DNA of 37,109 bases from a virus: the IMG/VR virus record IMGVR_UViG_3300036780_000098, positions 1 to 37,109 of that record; one strand, written 5' to 3'. Position 1 is the stretch's first letter, and every line of letters begins with the position of its first letter. A program made the position numbers and the translations under genes. The notes under the pieces were generated by a model. It saw only the letters and a program-made list of their open reading frames with translations, was not told the DNA's origin and did no database searches. This document shows, one piece after another, positions 28,412 to 35,970 of this stretch.

Positions 28412-31400
28412 GTGCCTGGGCCGTACAACGTCTGCAACGGGACCGCCAGCAGCGGCAGTGCGACGCTGACGGTCACCGTCGGCTCAGGCACGCCCACCGG
28501 CGGCAGCAGCGCGGCCGGGGATCTGGTCTATGTCACGGGTGGCAACACCGGTGGCCTGAACGTCACCGGCGTCACCGACAGCCAGGGCAACACGTACACG
28601 CAGGCGCCGAACCCGGCGAACTCGTCTGGCGCCAACCAGCGGTGCAGCATCTGGGCGTCGCTGACCACGAAGGCCCTGGTATCGGGCACGGACACGGTCA
28701 CGGTCACCTGGTCGTCCACCGGCGGGAACAAGTCGCTGATCGCCCGCGCGTGCAGCGGGGTGGCGTCGGCGTCGGCGGACCAGTCGGCGGGTGCGAACGG
28801 CACCAGCACCAGCCCGGGCTCGGGCGCGACCGGTGCGCTGGCGCAGGCGGGCGAGCTGGTGGTGGGCGCGATCCAGGACGCCACCGCGGGCGGCACGCCG
28901 ACCGGGCTCAGCTTCGGCACCGGGCTGACGGCCGGGAATACGACCGGGTTCGACGAGATCGTCTCCTCGACGTCGGCGGTGACCGCGTCCGGCACGATCA
29001 CCTCGGCGGCGTGGGGTGCGTGCGTGGCCACGTTCAAGATGGCCACCTTCACCGCGGCGGCCAGCCAGACGGTCACCCCGGACCAGTCGGCGCTGATGGA
29101 CAGCCTGCCTGCCACGGCCAGCCAGACGGTCACCCCGGCGCAGGCGGCGGCCGGGGTGGTGCTGACGGGTGAGCCGTACCTGATCGGCAGCGCGGGGCAC
29201 GCCACCGGCGCGGCCAGCCTCCAGGTGCCCGTGGGCAGCAACGGCGGCCACGCCTCCGGCGTGCAGGACGCGCTGCTCGTCGCTGGCGGCGCGTCCGGGA
29301 ACAGCGTCGAAGACGTCACCGACACGGCCAGCAACACCTACAGCCTGAGCCCCGGCGGCAGCGATGCCACGAAGCCGGGCACGTACCTGTTCGCGTCCCT
29401 CGGCCCGGCGCTGCTCGAGGCGGCCGGGTCGGTCACCCTCGGCTACGCCACCACCGCCGGAGCGAAGACCGGTATCGCCATCGGTGTGCCCGCGCCCGGC
29501 GGTCTGGACACGGCGGTGGCCGCCGACGGCGACAGCACCACCCCGTCGGTCACGACCGGCACCCTGGCCGAGCCGGGTGAGCTCGTGGTCGCGTTCTGCA
29601 CGTACGGGCAGGCGGGCGGCACGATGACGTGGGCGGACGGGTGGACGCAGCTGTGCGCCCCGTTCCAGGCCGCGGCCGGCCAGGAGTGGATGACCGCCGC
29701 CTACACCGTGGCCAGCGATACGAGCCCGGTCACCGCGGCGGGGACGATCGGCCTGGCGAACTGGACGATCGTCGCCCAGCCACTCATCCCCCAGCTGGCC
29801 ACCGCCGCCCAGACGGTCACGCCCAGCCAGGCCGCCACCCTGCACGTGACCGGCGGCGTGCGGGAGGCCACCGCAGCCCAGACGATCACCCCCGCGCAGG
29901 CGGTGGCCCCCGCGGTCGTCGCCACCGTCACCGCCACCGCCGCCGAGTCGGTCACGCCGGCACAGTCAGCCACGGCCCTGGTGGCCGGCCCGGGCCAGTT
30001 CCCCGACGCACCGCTCGGCGTGACCGCCGAGATCGCGCTGCCGTCCACCGGCACCGGCAGCGCTCCCACCGGCAGCAGCGGCGGCCTGGCAGGCGACTTC
30101 GGCAACACCTACCACGTGCCCAGCCTGGGCACGATCGACGTGGCCACGAAAGAATGGGTCGGCACCCTCGCCGGCTACCCGCCTGATGAGGTGGAACGCT
30201 GGCCGACCGCCCGCAAATGCTTCTTCAGCGCCTCGGACGGCACCGGCAGCGTGGCCAGCTTCCCGGTCACCTTCGGCTCCGACACGCAGGCCGCAAAAGA
30301 CCTCAAGATGCGCGCCTACCTGTGCTACAAGCCGGCGTACAACAGCGGCCTGTCCAGCTATGACGCCACGGTGGGGTCGGCCACCGCCGGGAACAGTCAC
30401 GGCGGCACGCAGGCCGACTGGATCGCCCTGAAGGCGTCGGTCGCCTGGCTCAGCTCCCACGGCCTGACCTGCGAAGTCGTGCTGTGGCACGAGATCGAGC
30501 ACCAGCCCCTCACCGCCGTCCAGTACTTCTCCATGCTGGCGTTCTATTCCAGCGCGGTCTCCGCCGTCCTCGGGACGGGCCACCTGCACCATGTCGCGTC
30601 GGCCGCCTACTCCGGGCAGCTGGTGGACTACTTCCCGGGCAAGCCGAACTTCAGCACGGAATGTTTCGTCGCCAAGGGCTGGACGGACTGCTACACGCAC
30701 TCCTGGTTCAACGGGTACCAGCTCGACGGAGGCACCACGCCGGCCGCCCCGGATTCGCTGATCGGCTTGTGCAACCGGAACAGCATCCCGTTCGGCGGGG
30801 TCATGGAGTTCGGCTGCGGCGGCGTGATCGCCGCGGGCCAGCAGCCCGCCGACACCAACGGCTACATCGACTACCTGACCGGCATCGCCGCGGCCTACCC
30901 GGGGTCCAGTTACATATGGTTCGCCGACACGACGGTCGGCAGCACGAATGACGTGATTCCTGGTTTTGCCAGCGGTGAGAGCGGCGGGTATGACGCCCGG
31001 CCGCACCTGCAGGCGCTGGCCGACGCGATCACCGGCGGCGCCGGTGGTGGTGGTGGCGGCGGTGGCGGTGGCGGTGGCACGGCCGGAGTCGTCTGGGAGG
31101 ACGTCACCGGCTACCTGTACGCGCCGGCCGGCCAGCCGGTGGTGACGCTGACCCGCGGCCGGCCGAACGAGTCGTCGCAGGTGAACCCGGGACAGGCCAC
31201 CTGCCAGATCGACAACCGGGCCGGGGATTTCACCGCCGCGAACCCGGGCGGCCGCTGGTACGGGCTGCTCAGCAAGAACACGCCGATCCGGTTCAGCGTG
31301 CCCAGCCAGGACGTGTACCTGCGCCTGGAGGACGACAGCACGTCGTGCGCGGCGTGCCCCACCGCGGCGGGCCTGGACATCACCGGCGGCATCGACGTCC

Positions 31401-33850
31401 GTCTCGACGTCACCCTGTCGAGCTGGGCTGAGACGGTCCTGGCGGCGAAGTGGACGCCGGGCACGGGCAACACGGAGAACTCCTGGATCCTGCTGCTGAA
31501 CCCGGACGGGACGCTGACCTGGTTCTGGTCCACGACGGGCAGCGACACGCTGTCCGCGCAGTCCACCGCGCCGGTCCCCGCCTATGGCCGGATGATGATC
31601 CGGGTCACGATGAACGCCAGCAACGGCACGGTCCGCTTCTACACCGGCCCCGTGCTCGGTTCCGGCAGCCAGCTGGGCGCCGCGGTGGGCCCGGGCACGG
31701 CGACCAGTATTTTCGTGAGCACGGCGCCGGTGAGTGTCGGCAACTACGGGCCGGCGAACCTGGCCAGCGAGGGCCTGAACGGGTCGGTGCACGAGTTCCA
31801 GCTGTATGCGGGGATCGCGGGGACGCTGGTGGCGGACCCGGTGTTCTCCGCCCAGCAGCCCGGCGCGCCCAGTTTCGCTGACGCGCAGGGGAACACGTGG
31901 ACGCCGTACGGGACGGCCGAGCTGTCGCAGCGGTCCTACCGGTTCCACGGCGAGATGAGCTCGGTGCCGAAGGCGGCGGACCCGACGGTCACCGACGTGT
32001 GGGTGGACCTGCAGGCGGGCGGCCTGCTGCGCCGCCTGTCGCAGGGCAACGCGCCGGAGTACAGCCCGATGCGGCGGGCGGTGCAGGCGCAGGCGGGGAC
32101 GCTGGCGCCGGCCGCCTACTGGCCGGCCGAGGACTTGCAGGGCAGCACGGTGCTCGGCAGCGCGACCGGCGGGCCGAGCATGACCGTATCCGGCGGGACG
32201 GGTGACGGGTCGGTCACGTTCACCGGGCCGGCGTTCAGCTCCGATACGACGTTCGCCTGCTCGGCCGCGCTGCCGGTGCTGAACGGGTCCGCGTGGCACG
32301 GCATCGTGCCCCGCTACACGAGCAACGGCAGCCTGATCGTCCGCTTCCTCATGAGCATCCCCAGCACGGCGGTGGCGTCCACACCGGTCATGCGGGTGCT
32401 CACCACCGGCACCCTGCAGGAGTTCTCCCTGTACTGGACCAGCGGCGGCGGCCTGTCCCTGGCGGGCTTCAGCCAGTCCGGCCAGGTGTTCAGCTCCGGG
32501 CCGGTGTCGTTCGGGGTGGACGGCAACCCGGTGTGGGTGAGCATGGAACTGCGGCCCGGGTCCGGGTCGCAGGTGAACTGGTCGATGGCCACCCTGCAGC
32601 CGGGCGCCAGCACGGGCCTCGGTTTCGCCGGCCACTTCAATGGGACGATCGGCCGCGCCACCGACATCTGGGTGTCCCCGGCCGGGAAGCAAACCCAGGT
32701 CACGATCGGCCATATCCAGGTCCAGTCCGACTGGGTGAGCCTGTTCAGCCTCTACCAGCCGCTGAACGCGTGGGACGGCGAGACCGCCGGATCCAGGTTC
32801 GCCCGGCTCTGCTCGGAGAACGGGGTCGCGGCCCGGATCGTCGGGCCGCCGGGCCTGTCTGCGGCGATGGGCGCCCAGCCGGTGGATACCCTCCCGGACT
32901 TGCTGACCCAGTGTGAGACCGCCGACATGGGGATGATCTTCGAGCCGCGGACGGCGTACGCCCTCGGCTACCGCACCCTGGTCAGCCTGCTGAATCAGAC
33001 GCCGGCGGCCACGATCGACTGGTCAGCCGGCCAGCTGTCCGACAGCGGGTTCAGCGCGCCCACCGACGACGACCAGTACACGATCAACGACGTCACCGCC
33101 ACCCGCGACTCCGGCGGCAGCGGCAGCAACTCCTCGGGCGCGTCGGTGCGGATCCTCCTGGACGACGGCACACCCATGTCGGTCAGCCCGCCGCCGGCCG
33201 GGGCGGGCGACTACGCCACCAGCGCGGACGTAAACGTCGAGTCTGACGCCCAGCTGCCCGACGTCGCGAGCTGGCTGGTGCACCGGGGCACGGTGGACGA
33301 GCCGCGCTGGCCGGCGATGCCCGTCGATTTGACGTGGCGGGACCTGGCCGCGCTCCGGTGGGCGCTGCAGGAGGTGGACGTCGGCGACCGGGCCGACCAG
33401 ACGGGCCTGCCGACCTGGCTCACCTGGAATGACGTCCGCCAGCTGGCCGCCGGGGCGAGTGAGCAGATCGGCGACTTCGTCTACAAGATCGCCTGGAACG
33501 CGATACCGGAGTCGGTGTACGAGACCGGCGTCCTCGATGACCCGGTGTACGGGCGGGCCGACACGGACGGCGCCACGCTCACCAGCGCGGTCAGCACGAC
33601 GGACACGACGCTGCCGGTGACGTCGGCCGGCCTGCCGTGGACGACGGCGGCGGGTGACCTGCCGTTTGATATCCAGCTGCACCCGCCGGGCGCGCCCGGC
33701 CGGGGTGAGCAGGTCACCGTCACCGCGGTCTCCGGCACGTCGAGCCCGCAAAGCTTCACGGTCACCCGGTCGGTCAACGGCGTGGTGACGGCGCACGCGG
33801 CCGGGGAAACCGTCAGCCTGTTCACCGAACCAGTGTTCGCGCTCGCATGA
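28412..33850 (+). CDS. giant modular tail protein with glycosidase-like domain
   Basis: This is a 1812-residue protein starting at GTG 28412, with only a GC-rich tract for a ribosome binding site. Residues 1-215 and 250-460 are two related beta domains, each followed by stalk-like repeats of the form AxQTVTPxQAA (about 217-245 and 465-530). Residues about 545-865 resemble a (β/α)8 glycoside hydrolase: WHEIEH with Glu694 and MEFG with Glu799 would be acid/base and nucleophile, as in GH26-like enzymes. A run of at least twelve Gly (about 877-890) leads to a region with two LamG-like sandwiches (about 970-1150, 1230-1445) and a tail-tip hub. It probably binds and trims host surface glycans. Confidence 0.8.
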   Translation: MPGPYNVCNGTASSGSATLTVTVGSGTPTGGSSAAGDLVYVTGGNTGGLNVTGVTDSQGNTYTQAPNPANSSGANQRCSIWASLTTKALVSGTDTVTVTWSSTGGNKSLIARACSGVASASADQSAGANGTSTSPGSGATGALAQAGELVVGAIQDATAGGTPTGLSFGTGLTAGNTTGFDEIVSSTSAVTASGTITSAAWGACVATFKMATFTAAASQTVTPDQSALMDSLPATASQTVTPAQAAAGVVLTGEPYLIGSAGHATGAASLQVPVGSNGGHASGVQDALLVAGGASGNSVEDVTDTASNTYSLSPGGSDATKPGTYLFASLGPALLEAAGSVTLGYATTAGAKTGIAIGVPAPGGLDTAVAADGDSTTPSVTTGTLAEPGELVVAFCTYGQAGGTMTWADGWTQLCAPFQAAAGQEWMTAAYTVASDTSPVTAAGTIGLANWTIVAQPLIPQLATAAQTVTPSQAATLHVTGGVREATAAQTITPAQAVAPAVVATVTATAAESVTPAQSATALVAGPGQFPDAPLGVTAEIALPSTGTGSAPTGSSGGLAGDFGNTYHVPSLGTIDVATKEWVGTLAGYPPDEVERWPTARKCFFSASDGTGSVASFPVTFGSDTQAAKDLKMRAYLCYKPAYNSGLSSYDATVGSATAGNSHGGTQADWIALKASVAWLSSHGLTCEVVLWHEIEHQPLTAVQYFSMLAFYSSAVSAVLGTGHLHHVASAAYSGQLVDYFPGKPNFSTECFVAKGWTDCYTHSWFNGYQLDGGTTPAAPDSLIGLCNRNSIPFGGVMEFGCGGVIAAGQQPADTNGYIDYLTGIAAAYPGSSYIWFADTTVGSTNDVIPGFASGESGGYDARPHLQALADAITGGAGGGGGGGGGGGGTAGVVWEDVTGYLYAPAGQPVVTLTRGRPNESSQVNPGQATCQIDNRAGDFTAANPGGRWYGLLSKNTPIRFSVPSQDVYLRLEDDSTSCAACPTAAGLDITGGIDVRLDVTLSSWAETVLAAKWTPGTGNTENSWILLLNPDGTLTWFWSTTGSDTLSAQSTAPVPAYGRMMIRVTMNASNGTVRFYTGPVLGSGSQLGAAVGPGTATSIFVSTAPVSVGNYGPANLASEGLNGSVHEFQLYAGIAGTLVADPVFSAQQPGAPSFADAQGNTWTPYGTAELSQRSYRFHGEMSSVPKAADPTVTDVWVDLQAGGLLRRLSQGNAPEYSPMRRAVQAQAGTLAPAAYWPAEDLQGSTVLGSATGGPSMTVSGGTGDGSVTFTGPAFSSDTTFACSAALPVLNGSAWHGIVPRYTSNGSLIVRFLMSIPSTAVASTPVMRVLTTGTLQEFSLYWTSGGGLSLAGFSQSGQVFSSGPVSFGVDGNPVWVSMELRPGSGSQVNWSMATLQPGASTGLGFAGHFNGTIGRATDIWVSPAGKQTQVTIGHIQVQSDWVSLFSLYQPLNAWDGETAGSRFARLCSENGVAARIVGPPGLSAAMGAQPVDTLPDLLTQCETADMGMIFEPRTAYALGYRTLVSLLNQTPAATIDWSAGQLSDSGFSAPTDDDQYTINDVTATRDSGGSGSNSSGASVRILLDDGTPMSVSPPPAGAGDYATSADVNVESDAQLPDVASWLVHRGTVDEPRWPAMPVDLTWRDLAALRWALQEVDVGDRADQTGLPTWLTWNDVRQLAAGASEQIGDFVYKIAWNAIPESVYETGVLDDPVYGRADTDGATLTSAVSTTDTTLPVTSAGLPWTTAAGDLPFDIQLHPPGAPGRGEQVTVTAVSGTSSPQSFTVTRSVNGVVTAHAAGETVSLFTEPVFALA

Positions 33851-33860
33851 GGAGGACGCC

Positions 33861-34358
33861 ATGACCGGTGTAGCCGGCATCCTGGCCGGTGCCAGGATCA
33901 CCGCCGCGATGATCGCCGCGATCGCGCCCAACGCGGTGGTCAAAGGCGACGACGAATCCCTCTCCTCGAGCACGGCCATGCAGAACGATGACGCGCTCGT
34001 CATCCCGCTGACCGCCAACTCCAGCTGGCTGGTGGTGTGCTTCTTCAACTATGTGGCGACGACCGGCGCGGACTTCAAATACCGGTTCACCGCGCCGTCG
34101 GGGATCACCGGCTACCAGCAGCCGACCAGGCTGAACCTGTCCGGCCAGTTCACCGGCGCGTTCAGCAGTCTGTGGACGGACACGGTCACCGCCGACGGGC
34201 AGGGCGCCAGCACGATCATGAACGTGTTCGCGTTCGGCCAGATCACCACCGGCCCGGCCGGCGGGGACCTGCAGCTCCAGTGGGCGCAGAACACGAGCAA
34301 CGGCAACTCGACCACGGTCAAGGCCGGAAGCATTCTCGCCGCCTGGCAGGTCGCATGA
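33861..34358 (+). CDS. small tail/tip protein, beta-rich
   Basis: This is a 165-residue protein with GAGGA before its ATG. It has a hydrophobic helical N-terminus (residues 3-25) and then a beta-sandwich with WLVVCFFNYVATTGADFKYRF and LSGQFTGAFSSLWTDTV. It follows the giant tail protein and may be a trimeric tip or base component. The family is unrecognised. Confidence 0.65.
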   Translation: MTGVAGILAGARITAAMIAAIAPNAVVKGDDESLSSSTAMQNDDALVIPLTANSSWLVVCFFNYVATTGADFKYRFTAPSGITGYQQPTRLNLSGQFTGAFSSLWTDTVTADGQGASTIMNVFAFGQITTGPAGGDLQLQWAQNTSNGNSTTVKAGSILAAWQVA

Positions 34359-34624
34359 GCCCCTGGTACGACGGCTACTGGCCGCAATGGGTGATCCAGA
34401 ACATCCTGCCCAACCCCGCCTGGTGGCTGCTCGTCATCGTCCCCGGCGCCGTCTTCCGCAAACGGATCAAAGCCTGGTGGCACCGGCACTTCGGCGCCGA
34501 GGCCGACCTGCGGGAGATCAGGGAGACGGCCGCGGCCGCACACAAGATCATGGCCGACCTGTACCGGCACCACACCGGCCACGCGCACAAGCTGGCACCC
34601 GACGATCATGAGGGGGGGACGTGA
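34355..34624 (+). CDS. holin-like or lysis-cassette membrane protein
   Basis: The ATG at 34355 is coupled to the previous stop, giving 89 residues. One transmembrane helix lies at about residues 10-35 (WWLLVIVPGAVF), followed by a basic His-rich cytoplasmic tail and an amphipathic helix. Its position at the start of the lysis module suggests a holin or spanin-like accessory. This is a weak assignment. Confidence 0.6.
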   Translation: MSPWYDGYWPQWVIQNILPNPAWWLLVIVPGAVFRKRIKAWWHRHFGAEADLREIRETAAAAHKIMADLYRHHTGHAHKLAPDDHEGGT

Positions 34625-34875
34625 ACCAATGGCGGCTGATCAAGGACGTCTTGCTGACGGGCCTGGGCATGTTCGCGATCTACTCGCAGCTGTTCCGCCA
34701 GCACCCGGACGGGCTGATCCTGGGCGCGGGCCTGGCGCTCACCGTCCCGTCGATCGCGTCGCACGTGAGGGCCCTGCTGCCCGGGCCTGGCGATGGGGAT
34801 TCCTCGCCGCCGCCTCCGCCAGCAGCGGCGCCGCCGCCGGCGCCCTCATCTGGGGAGGTGTCCACTGGTGAATGA
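34621..34875 (+). CDS. holin candidate with two hydrophobic helices
   Basis: This is an 84-residue protein with two predicted transmembrane helices (about 8-25 and 33-50) and a Pro/Ala/Ser-rich tail of about 30 residues. The size and topology suit a class II holin, which would open the membrane for the lysin. It is coupled to the neighbouring genes by overlaps on both sides. Confidence 0.65.
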   Translation: MNQWRLIKDVLLTGLGMFAIYSQLFRQHPDGLILGAGLALTVPSIASHVRALLPGPGDGDSSPPPPPAAAPPPAPSSGEVSTGE

Positions 34876-35218
34876 GCACGAGGAGCGGCTGCCCGTTGGC
34901 CCGAAGGGTGACCGGGGTGAGCGGGGGATGCCCCGCGGGCAGCGGCGGGCGGTCGTGTTCCTGTTCCTGCTGTCGCTGGCCATGTCGGTGGCCGCCTACC
35001 TGGCCGCCACCAACTACTACCGGGACGGCCAGGCCACGCAGCAGCGGCAGGGCCTCGTGCTGGAGCGGAAGCTGTGCGGGTCGTTCGGGAAGCTGGCCGG
35101 CCTGCACCCACCGCCCGGGAACCCGGCCACCAATCCCAGCCGGGCGTACCTGCAGACGCAGCATGACATCCTCGCCGGGATCGGCGCCGACCTGCAATGC
35201 CCCGGAGGCAGTCCATGA
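34868..35218 (+). CDS. single-helix membrane protein with a collagen-like stretch
   Basis: The GTG at 34868 overlaps the previous gene, giving 116 residues. Residues 11-22 read GPKGDRGERGMP, a short Gly-X-Y run, then a transmembrane helix (about 30-50), then a region with Cys near residues 70 and 111. The external part may form a disulfide. The shape resembles spanin-like or signal-anchor proteins, but the role is unknown. Confidence 0.6.
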   Translation: MNEHEERLPVGPKGDRGERGMPRGQRRAVVFLFLLSLAMSVAAYLAATNYYRDGQATQQRQGLVLERKLCGSFGKLAGLHPPPGNPATNPSRAYLQTQHDILAGIGADLQCPGGSP

Positions 35219-35970
35219 GGGAGATGTACGACGCCACCGTCCCGGGGAACATCCGGGCGAGCGCGGCCATGGTCGCCTGGTACGGCGACGGCCTGTACGC
35301 GTGGAGCCAAGCGGACCTCGACCGGTTCGCGGACGCGGTCAAGGTGCGGATCACCGTCTTCGCTGATGATGACGAGGGCCAGGTTCTCGACGTCGAGAAC
35401 GGCGACGCCACGCCGGTGGAAGCGCCCGGGTGGGCGCAGCGCCGCCGGGCGGCCGGGCAGGACCCGACGGTGTACTGCAACGCGTCAACCTGGCCGCAGG
35501 TGCGGGCCGAGTTCGCCCTGGCGAAGGTGGCCGAGCCGCACTGGTGGATCGCCGAGTACGACGGCCGGCCGGAGGTCCCGGCGGGGGCGGTCGCGAAACA
35601 GTACCTGGGCGGGCCGACGGCACTGTTCGACGTGTCGGCCGTGGCGGACTACTGGCCGGGCGTGGACCCGGCACCCAAACCAGCACCAGCACCGGAGGAA
35701 GCGATGGCGAACGGGATGATCACCGGCAAGGCCGGGAGTAAGCAGGACATCGTCTGCCCGATGGGGAAGCGCCCGGACCTGATCACGTTCGGCTGCTCGG
35801 AGGCCGCGCGGCTGTCGGTGGATACGCGGGTGAAGGGCACGGCCGACGTGGAGGTTGACCTCAGCTACGTGGAGACCAAGCCGGTCGAGTGGCCGAAGGG
35901 GATCGACATGATCGTCGTGCACGTCGTCGAGGCGGCCGCGGACGGGACACCCATCAGCTGGGCGTACTAG
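35215..35970 (+). CDS. probable endolysin, GH25/Rv2525c-like glycoside hydrolase
   Basis: This is a 251-residue protein; ATG 35215 has GGAGG upstream and overlaps the previous stop. Residues 1-150 are like the glycoside-hydrolase-type domain of Rv2525c and GH25: MYDAT with Asp6, VLDVENGDA with Asp59/Glu61, TVYCNASTWPQVRAEF, WWIAEYDG and KQY. A Pro/Ala linker (about 148-162) joins it to a beta-rich C-terminal domain. It would cut the cell wall for release. No amidase gene is present. The C-terminal domain may also be made separately (see 35694). Confidence 0.7.
   Translation: MREMYDATVPGNIRASAAMVAWYGDGLYAWSQADLDRFADAVKVRITVFADDDEGQVLDVENGDATPVEAPGWAQRRRAAGQDPTVYCNASTWPQVRAEFALAKVAEPHWWIAEYDGRPEVPAGAVAKQYLGGPTALFDVSAVADYWPGVDPAPKPAPAPEEAMANGMITGKAGSKQDIVCPMGKRPDLITFGCSEAARLSVDTRVKGTADVEVDLSYVETKPVEWPKGIDMIVVHVVEAAADGTPISWAY
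35694..35706 (+). promoter_or_regulatory. internal ribosome binding site and ATG in the lysin gene
   Basis: GGAGGAA at 35694-35700 lies three bases before an in-frame ATG at 35704. It falls at the linker between the catalytic and C-terminal domains, so translation from here would yield an 88-residue free C-terminal domain ending at the common stop. Several endolysins use such an internal start to form hetero-oligomers. Confidence 0.5.

Follow-up and report, generated by a model that had tools for sequence, protein, structure and literature searches.

We describe here a phage lysin gene that, with a probability we put at about two in three, makes two proteins from a single reading frame: a full-length lysin and a free 88-residue C-terminal module that joins it. 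The gene lies in a 37,109-base virus record (the whole stretch analysed, hereafter the window) from a probable actinobacterial siphovirus with head, portal and tail genes. Lysins with two starts are already known; what is new is a start-carrying, shuffled module, whose start seems to move along when the domain is swapped. In the proposed mechanism, initiation at 35215 would give the full chain, a C-terminal module fused to a GH25-like muramidase, and initiation at 35704 would give the 88-residue module alone. Most probably the free copies would bind to the module at the end of the full-length protein, and one catalytic domain would then sit on several wall-binding or multimerising units. The features on which the argument turns are as follows.

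34355 to 34624, plus strand: small membrane protein with one hydrophobic stretch (by eye), in a lysis-cassette context
34621 to 34875, plus strand: holin-like small protein, in which two stretches look hydrophobic by eye, overlapping its neighbours
34868 to 35218, plus strand: protein directly upstream of the lysin, with one predicted membrane stretch; its stop overlaps the lysin start
35204 to 35208, plus strand: GGAGG, the Shine-Dalgarno sequence for the main start, 6 nt 5' of the ATG at 35215; pairing energy -9.5
35215 to 35970, plus strand: full-length lysin gene, 251 codons, with GH25-like N-domain, linker and C-module
35215 to 35667, plus strand: N-domain, residues 1-151, a predicted GH25-like barrel; D6, D59, E61 and D139 conserved
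35668 to 35703, plus strand: interdomain linker PAPKPAPAPEEA, 12 residues, Pro/Ala
35694 to 35698, plus strand: internal Shine-Dalgarno GGAGG (the longer GGAGGAA reaches 35700); energy -9.5
35704 to 35970, plus strand: nested in-frame ORF for the predicted free C-module, 88 residues, sharing the lysin stop codon; a sequence orphan

The first-pass annotation had placed GGAGGAA (35694-35700) ahead of an in-frame ATG at the interdomain linker, and the sequence agrees to the base. The ATG at 35704-35706 is in frame with the lysin gene, GGAGG stands 5 nt (AAGCG) before it, and the site falls at the end of the linker, which itself follows ADYWPGVD, a conserved motif that closes the N-domain. The energy of pairing to the 16S tail was computed with the 13 bases ending 4 nt before each start, against an assumed anti-Shine-Dalgarno sequence; it came to -9.5 kcal/mol at the internal start and to the same value at the main start. 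Taken by itself, the window gene makes the internal site only suggestive. A start as strong as -9.5 occurred in 3 of 245 in-frame 33-codon stretches of other window ORFs, and an equally strong site arose in 67% of synonymous-codon shuffles of the gene, because the residues Glu-Glu-Ala-Met favour such a site; a single Shine-Dalgarno site in the window is therefore weak evidence. The mRNA around the internal start is unusually open: its value is -6.3, whereas synonymous shuffles average -11.3 and 3% of 100 are as open.

The statistical weight for an internal start comes instead from comparison with relatives. Viral contigs yielded 50 loci encoding the N-domain from 53 candidate stretches and genome contigs yielded 19 from 44, the latter comprising 12 from Amycolatopsis, two from Kitasatospora, one each from Streptantibioticus, Streptomyces and Saccharothrix, one from a Mycobacterium MAG and one from a Frankiales MAG. 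Further genome searches in two families gave matches in 13/297 and 10/297 genomes, and N-domain identity to the window was 47-63% over the 13 other rows of the alignment. The final tally held 86 distinct members, or 79 after 90% reduction with the window included. Among these 79, the best in-frame start (ATG or GTG) after the N-domain had an energy of -7 or below in 60, between -7 and -5 in eight and weaker in 11, so that 68/79 carry a site of -5 or below at the same relative place. In a background of the same stretch length, 237/3836 reached -7 and 833/3836 reached -5.

Synonymous shuffles separate selection on RNA from selection on protein, and they were applied to 48 genes (47 from viral contigs plus the window, the duplicates L038, L039 and L046 having been dropped). 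The best start after the N-domain averaged -8.39 kcal/mol against -6.18 (SD 0.36) in the shuffles, a mean reached by 0/300 of them; 34 of the 48 genes reached -8, against a shuffle mean of 17.3 and a maximum of 26. The signal is also confined in position and in frame. Energies of -8 or below were found in the stretch after the N-domain in 32/45 genes, in 0-4 of 21-48 for the other in-frame stretches of the same genes (0/3 for the last stretch), in 1/45 and 0/45 for the two other frames of the post-N-domain stretch, and in 94/3142 stretches of 237 other, neighbouring ORFs. For mRNA structure, 52 genes were compared, 18 named loci and genes with energies above -5 having been set aside beforehand. 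Structure in the message reaches its minimum around the internal start (-6.1, compared with -9.8 to -12.6 at distances of at least 30 nt), which is more open than the main start (-8.1), and third-position GC dips at the same point; synonymous shuffles averaged -9.17, and the observed mean was reached by 0/100.

These comparisons bear on the possibility that selection on the protein, for instance for a protease site or a linker function, preserves the acidic-acidic-x-Met motif, which would then look start-like through its purine-rich Glu/Asp/Gly codons. An acidic motif before Met or Val is indeed common at the linker, and the shuffles of the window gene alone are what this explanation would expect, but family-wide shuffles reproduce neither the strength of the site nor the openness of the message, and like sites are built from other residues, as in Gly-Gly-Pro-Val (L030) and Gly-Val-Glu-Ile-Met (L055). 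We regard it as the least probable of the alternatives considered here. The internal start proposed in the first-pass annotation is strongly supported by conservation, by the shuffles and by the module comparisons given below, which add that the start is a family-wide trait of these sequences and goes with the C-module.

That link is seen first in the exceptions. Nine of the 11 members lacking a start also lack a small C-module directly after the N-domain. In L014 and L035 the protein ends after the linker and there is no strong start; in L005, L094 and L096 a DG.WG..T-type domain follows the N-domain, again with no strong start; and in L021, L067, L098 and L099 the N-domain is followed by another domain that resembles an amidase, both class names having been assigned by eye. 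A reading of the DG.WG..T-type domains as peptidoglycan-binding repeats was dropped, as it too was a by-eye likeness with no Pfam match. The longer lysins with the amidase-like domain (L021, 5001-6419; L067, 5001-6083; L098; L099) gave no Pfam match for that domain in L021 or L067, and L021 has a weak PHROGs endolysin match. Three of these four have a start before the last small module instead (L021 -9.5, L098 -10.4, L099 -9.3), and the fourth, L067, has no last small module. The two remaining exceptions do have a C-terminal part: L049 has an ATG with a weak Shine-Dalgarno sequence, and L070 is divergent with a weak site. The members with only a moderate start are L023, L028, L029, L040, L050, L063, L066 and L093. 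Among these sequences, then, the site is present, conserved and tied to the presence of a small C-module, and from this pattern we strongly infer translation from the internal start.

The C-terminal parts themselves turn over rapidly: 65 non-redundant parts fell into 37 groups, 29 of them singletons (phmmer, E < 1e-3). As the start is kept while relatives swap unrelated tail domains, it is probable that the tail is produced on its own as well. Many Amycolatopsis genomes contain lysins that are much alike and share one 102-residue C-module (L054-L060, L075, L078, L080), perhaps a sign of a prophage element that has become fixed or domesticated.

A second line of evidence comes from modules found behind other catalytic domains. 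The beta-rich module type A3, searched in 294 genomes, was located at 18 places in 11 genomes, and 15 of these places were analysed. Besides the N-domain family of the window (L112), it was found on five other N-terminal domain types: canonical GH25 (L107, L113, L114 and L119 by Pfam; L108, L110 and L120 by likeness only), an Rv2525c-like PF08924 domain (L111, L117), Amidase_2 (L109), a phrog_32486 domain (L115, L116) and a domain without a match (L106); L118 has it on a damaged-looking GH25-like ORF. An in-frame start stands at the beginning of the module in 14 of the 15 genes, with energies of -8.2 to -12.2, and in L118 there is none. Because the modules behind the A3 profile had been trimmed to begin at their start codons, the precise offset is in part built in, whereas the presence of a start is not. 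Similarly, the helical-looking module of L045 recurs, 82% identical, on a canonical GH25 domain in L105 (PF01183, E 2.8e-28), where it keeps the same GGAGGACATT-GTG start. The phrog_32486 domain fused to the beta-module in L115 (1453-2181) and L116 (940-1728) looks M15-type peptidase-like by eye.

On balance we favour a wider reading in which the C-modules of actinobacterial phages are start-carrying mini-genes (Shine-Dalgarno sequence, start, module, stop) that recombine in frame behind any wall hydrolase. If so, a fused lysin and a free module would be made automatically after each module swap, and swapping would re-target or re-assemble the lysin while the two-protein design persists. An origin by gene fusion could leave a similar trace: the C-module would once have been a downstream gene of its own, and its start would persist as a functionless remnant; the start does coincide with residue 1 of the module and accompanies it. 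Such a relic would decay, however, yet genes that have diverged far from one another still preserve both the synonymous positions and the open mRNA, and unfused copies were absent from the module scans made, so we give a functionless relic little credence. In four scans for stand-alone modules, the first confirmed 3/5 stretches, all on contigs already known, the second 1/57, the query itself, the third 2/33, the query and the GH25 fusion L105, and the fourth was the search that returned the 18 places, where the 15 analysed all lie within longer ORFs. As these scans mainly reach close relatives, rare stand-alone copies may exist.

What the two proteins would do depends on their domains. The N-domain has an AlphaFold pLDDT of 90-98 through residue 150, and the model has the GH25 barrel fold, its scores being tied with those of other GH25-like proteins. 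In VIA-align 2 it matched 1sfs at Z 13.3 (3.3 A, 152 residues), GH25 endolysins at 11.7-11.4 (4krt 11.7; Cpl-1, 1oba, 11.6; CTP1L, 5a6s, 11.5, among the top fold matches) and 1jfx at 10.9, and Rv2525c (4pmo) at 10.8 was tied with the GH25 rows. Sequence searches of solved structures gave no match for the window protein or for the N-domain profile. The window protein reached 19.2 bits for PF01183 against a curated cut-off of 27, so the domain is filed as GH25-like and not as a GH25 member. The first-pass annotation had assigned it to an Rv2525c/GH25-like group. The GH25 half of that assignment stands, with weak PF01183 matches at E <= 0.01 in 26/57 members (best 3.3e-5) and the acidic residues kept; the Rv2525c half does not stand by family, for Rv2525c shares the GH25-like barrel but PF08924 matched 0/57 members at E <= 0.01 (it does match the other lysins L111 and L117), and by fold GH25 lysozymes and Rv2525c are about equal (VIA Z 10.8-11.7). 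The GH25 active-site acids, a strand-1 Asp and the D-x-E pair, are retained: D59 is invariant, D6 and E61 are found in at least 90% of the 57 members, and in a profile alignment the D-x-E falls on that of canonical GH25 domains (probability 95.4, E 1.9e-8). By comparison with GH25 structures, D6 and D139 would be the other two active-site acids. The fold matches, the family matches and the D-x-E alignment together give the name GH25-like and point to a putative muramidase. The near-identical L040 and L046 (gene from 5001) apparently lack the D-x-E glutamate, with IGDGPPDNG in its place.

The C-module of the window has no Pfam or PHROG match, in keeping with the earlier remark that it is not a known wall-binding module. 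Of 17 candidate stretches for relatives in viral contigs none was confirmed, a search of 294 genomes, run with no positive control, found none, and the beta-module profile matched it at E 4.0. As it has no detectable relative, its sequence gives no indication of wall binding or of multimerisation. Its AlphaFold model is beta-rich at low confidence, and since the pLDDT is only 50-62 we make no claim that the module is beta-rich. Elsewhere in the family, the beta-module (alignment A6, L063 first) was modelled at pLDDT 80 as a beta-sandwich; it had no Foldseek match at E <= 0.001, and its VIA matches (best Z 7.9) were unspecific, mixing carbohydrate-binding with unrelated beta-sandwiches, and no function was drawn from them. 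The L004 module has a weak match to collagen repeats (PF01391, E 0.0016), a trimerising kind of sequence. We infer for the module a wall-binding or multimerising role.

CTP1L and LysIME-EF1 offer precedents that make it plausible that the free module would assemble with the full enzyme. The endolysin CTP1L of a Clostridium tyrobutyricum phage likewise has a GH25-type domain, a single C-terminal domain and an internal Shine-Dalgarno sequence with an in-frame start at the linker; it differs in host phylum, and no likeness was seen between the C-domains. Its linker-start secondary product forms a heterotetramer with the full enzyme (PMC4777826), so that product and complex are proved for CTP1L and predicted for the window gene. 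LysIME-EF1 and Lys170 of Enterococcus phages (one full-length chain to three C-domains) also combine one catalytic domain with an internal start before the C-domain, and LysIME-EF1 has been reported as one full chain with three free domains, although its catalytic domain is CHAP and not GH25-like (PMC7098653). LysP7951 reaches a stoichiometry of 1:5 (PMC9430671). In the actinobacterial phages, mycobacteriophage Ms6 carries an embedded in-frame second lysin gene with a ribosome-binding site (LysA/Lysin241, PMC3111421), an arrangement like ours in its second start, but the short Ms6 protein is a peptidoglycan hydrolase in its own right, whereas the window module has no known catalytic domain.

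The short product might instead act apart from the enzyme: it could bind the wall by itself and occupy or mark sites there, tune the timing of lysis, or stop the lysin from spreading to uninfected cells. One module type bearing its own start on several unrelated N-terminal domains is what an independent product would look like, and for a C. difficile endolysin it has been suggested that the CBD holds the enzyme on remnants of the wall (PMC9045149). We find this a less likely account, to which we still allow some weight: six endolysins that combine a single catalytic domain with an internal start were shown to form mixed complexes (Pinto et al., PMC9430671), and the scans made found no stand-alone copy of a module. 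For the favoured reading, a joint complex of module and enzyme, function need not follow from presence, as removal of the second product from CS74L and CD27L left lysis unchanged in the reported in vitro assays (PMC4777826). Phages 2638A and Ms6 making only one isoform have been reported to show delayed or defective lysis.

The gene arrangement as such is known, since internal starts were predicted in 51.5% of 3,780 endolysins of phages of Gram-positive hosts (Pinto et al. 2022, PMC9430671). It is alike in LysP7951 and the other "two-polypeptide endolysins encoded in single genes" treated there: the window gene has an in-frame internal start with a Shine-Dalgarno sequence between catalytic and C-terminal domain, conserved in relatives at the same relative place. 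That survey, as far as its accessible text goes, drew on reference-database endolysins and does not describe a start linked to a module on unrelated catalytic domains. The lysin family here, in contrast, had no tblastn match in 50,697 phage records with the window protein and two relatives as queries, nor did the beta-module alone in a search of the same type; a portal query retrieved 850 records, so the search of this collection works. In the accessible parts of the open literature searched, we found no account of this lysin family or of a start-carrying module moving between catalytic domains. Dual-start endolysins have so far been proved case by case or predicted in a survey. In the present family the start is conserved across dozens of dissimilar modules, and one module bears its start on unrelated catalytic domains; both facts argue for selection on the second product in its own right, pointing to a natural rule of lysin modularity in soil actinophages, in a family with no cultured phage relative in the collection searched. 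The rule can be tested in cultured lysogens of Amycolatopsis and Kitasatospora.

Around the window gene, three small overlapping genes (34355-35218) follow the tail genes and lead into the lysin gene. Their overlaps of a few bases, including that of the last stop with the lysin main start (ATGA), resemble a translationally coupled lysis cassette. A crude hydropathy scan found an upstream membrane gene in 31/64 loci. Further upstream, an ORF of 1812 residues (28412-33850) matches phrog_5313 (E 6.2e-162), a phrog whose function is not annotated, and also a phosphodiesterase family near its C-terminus.
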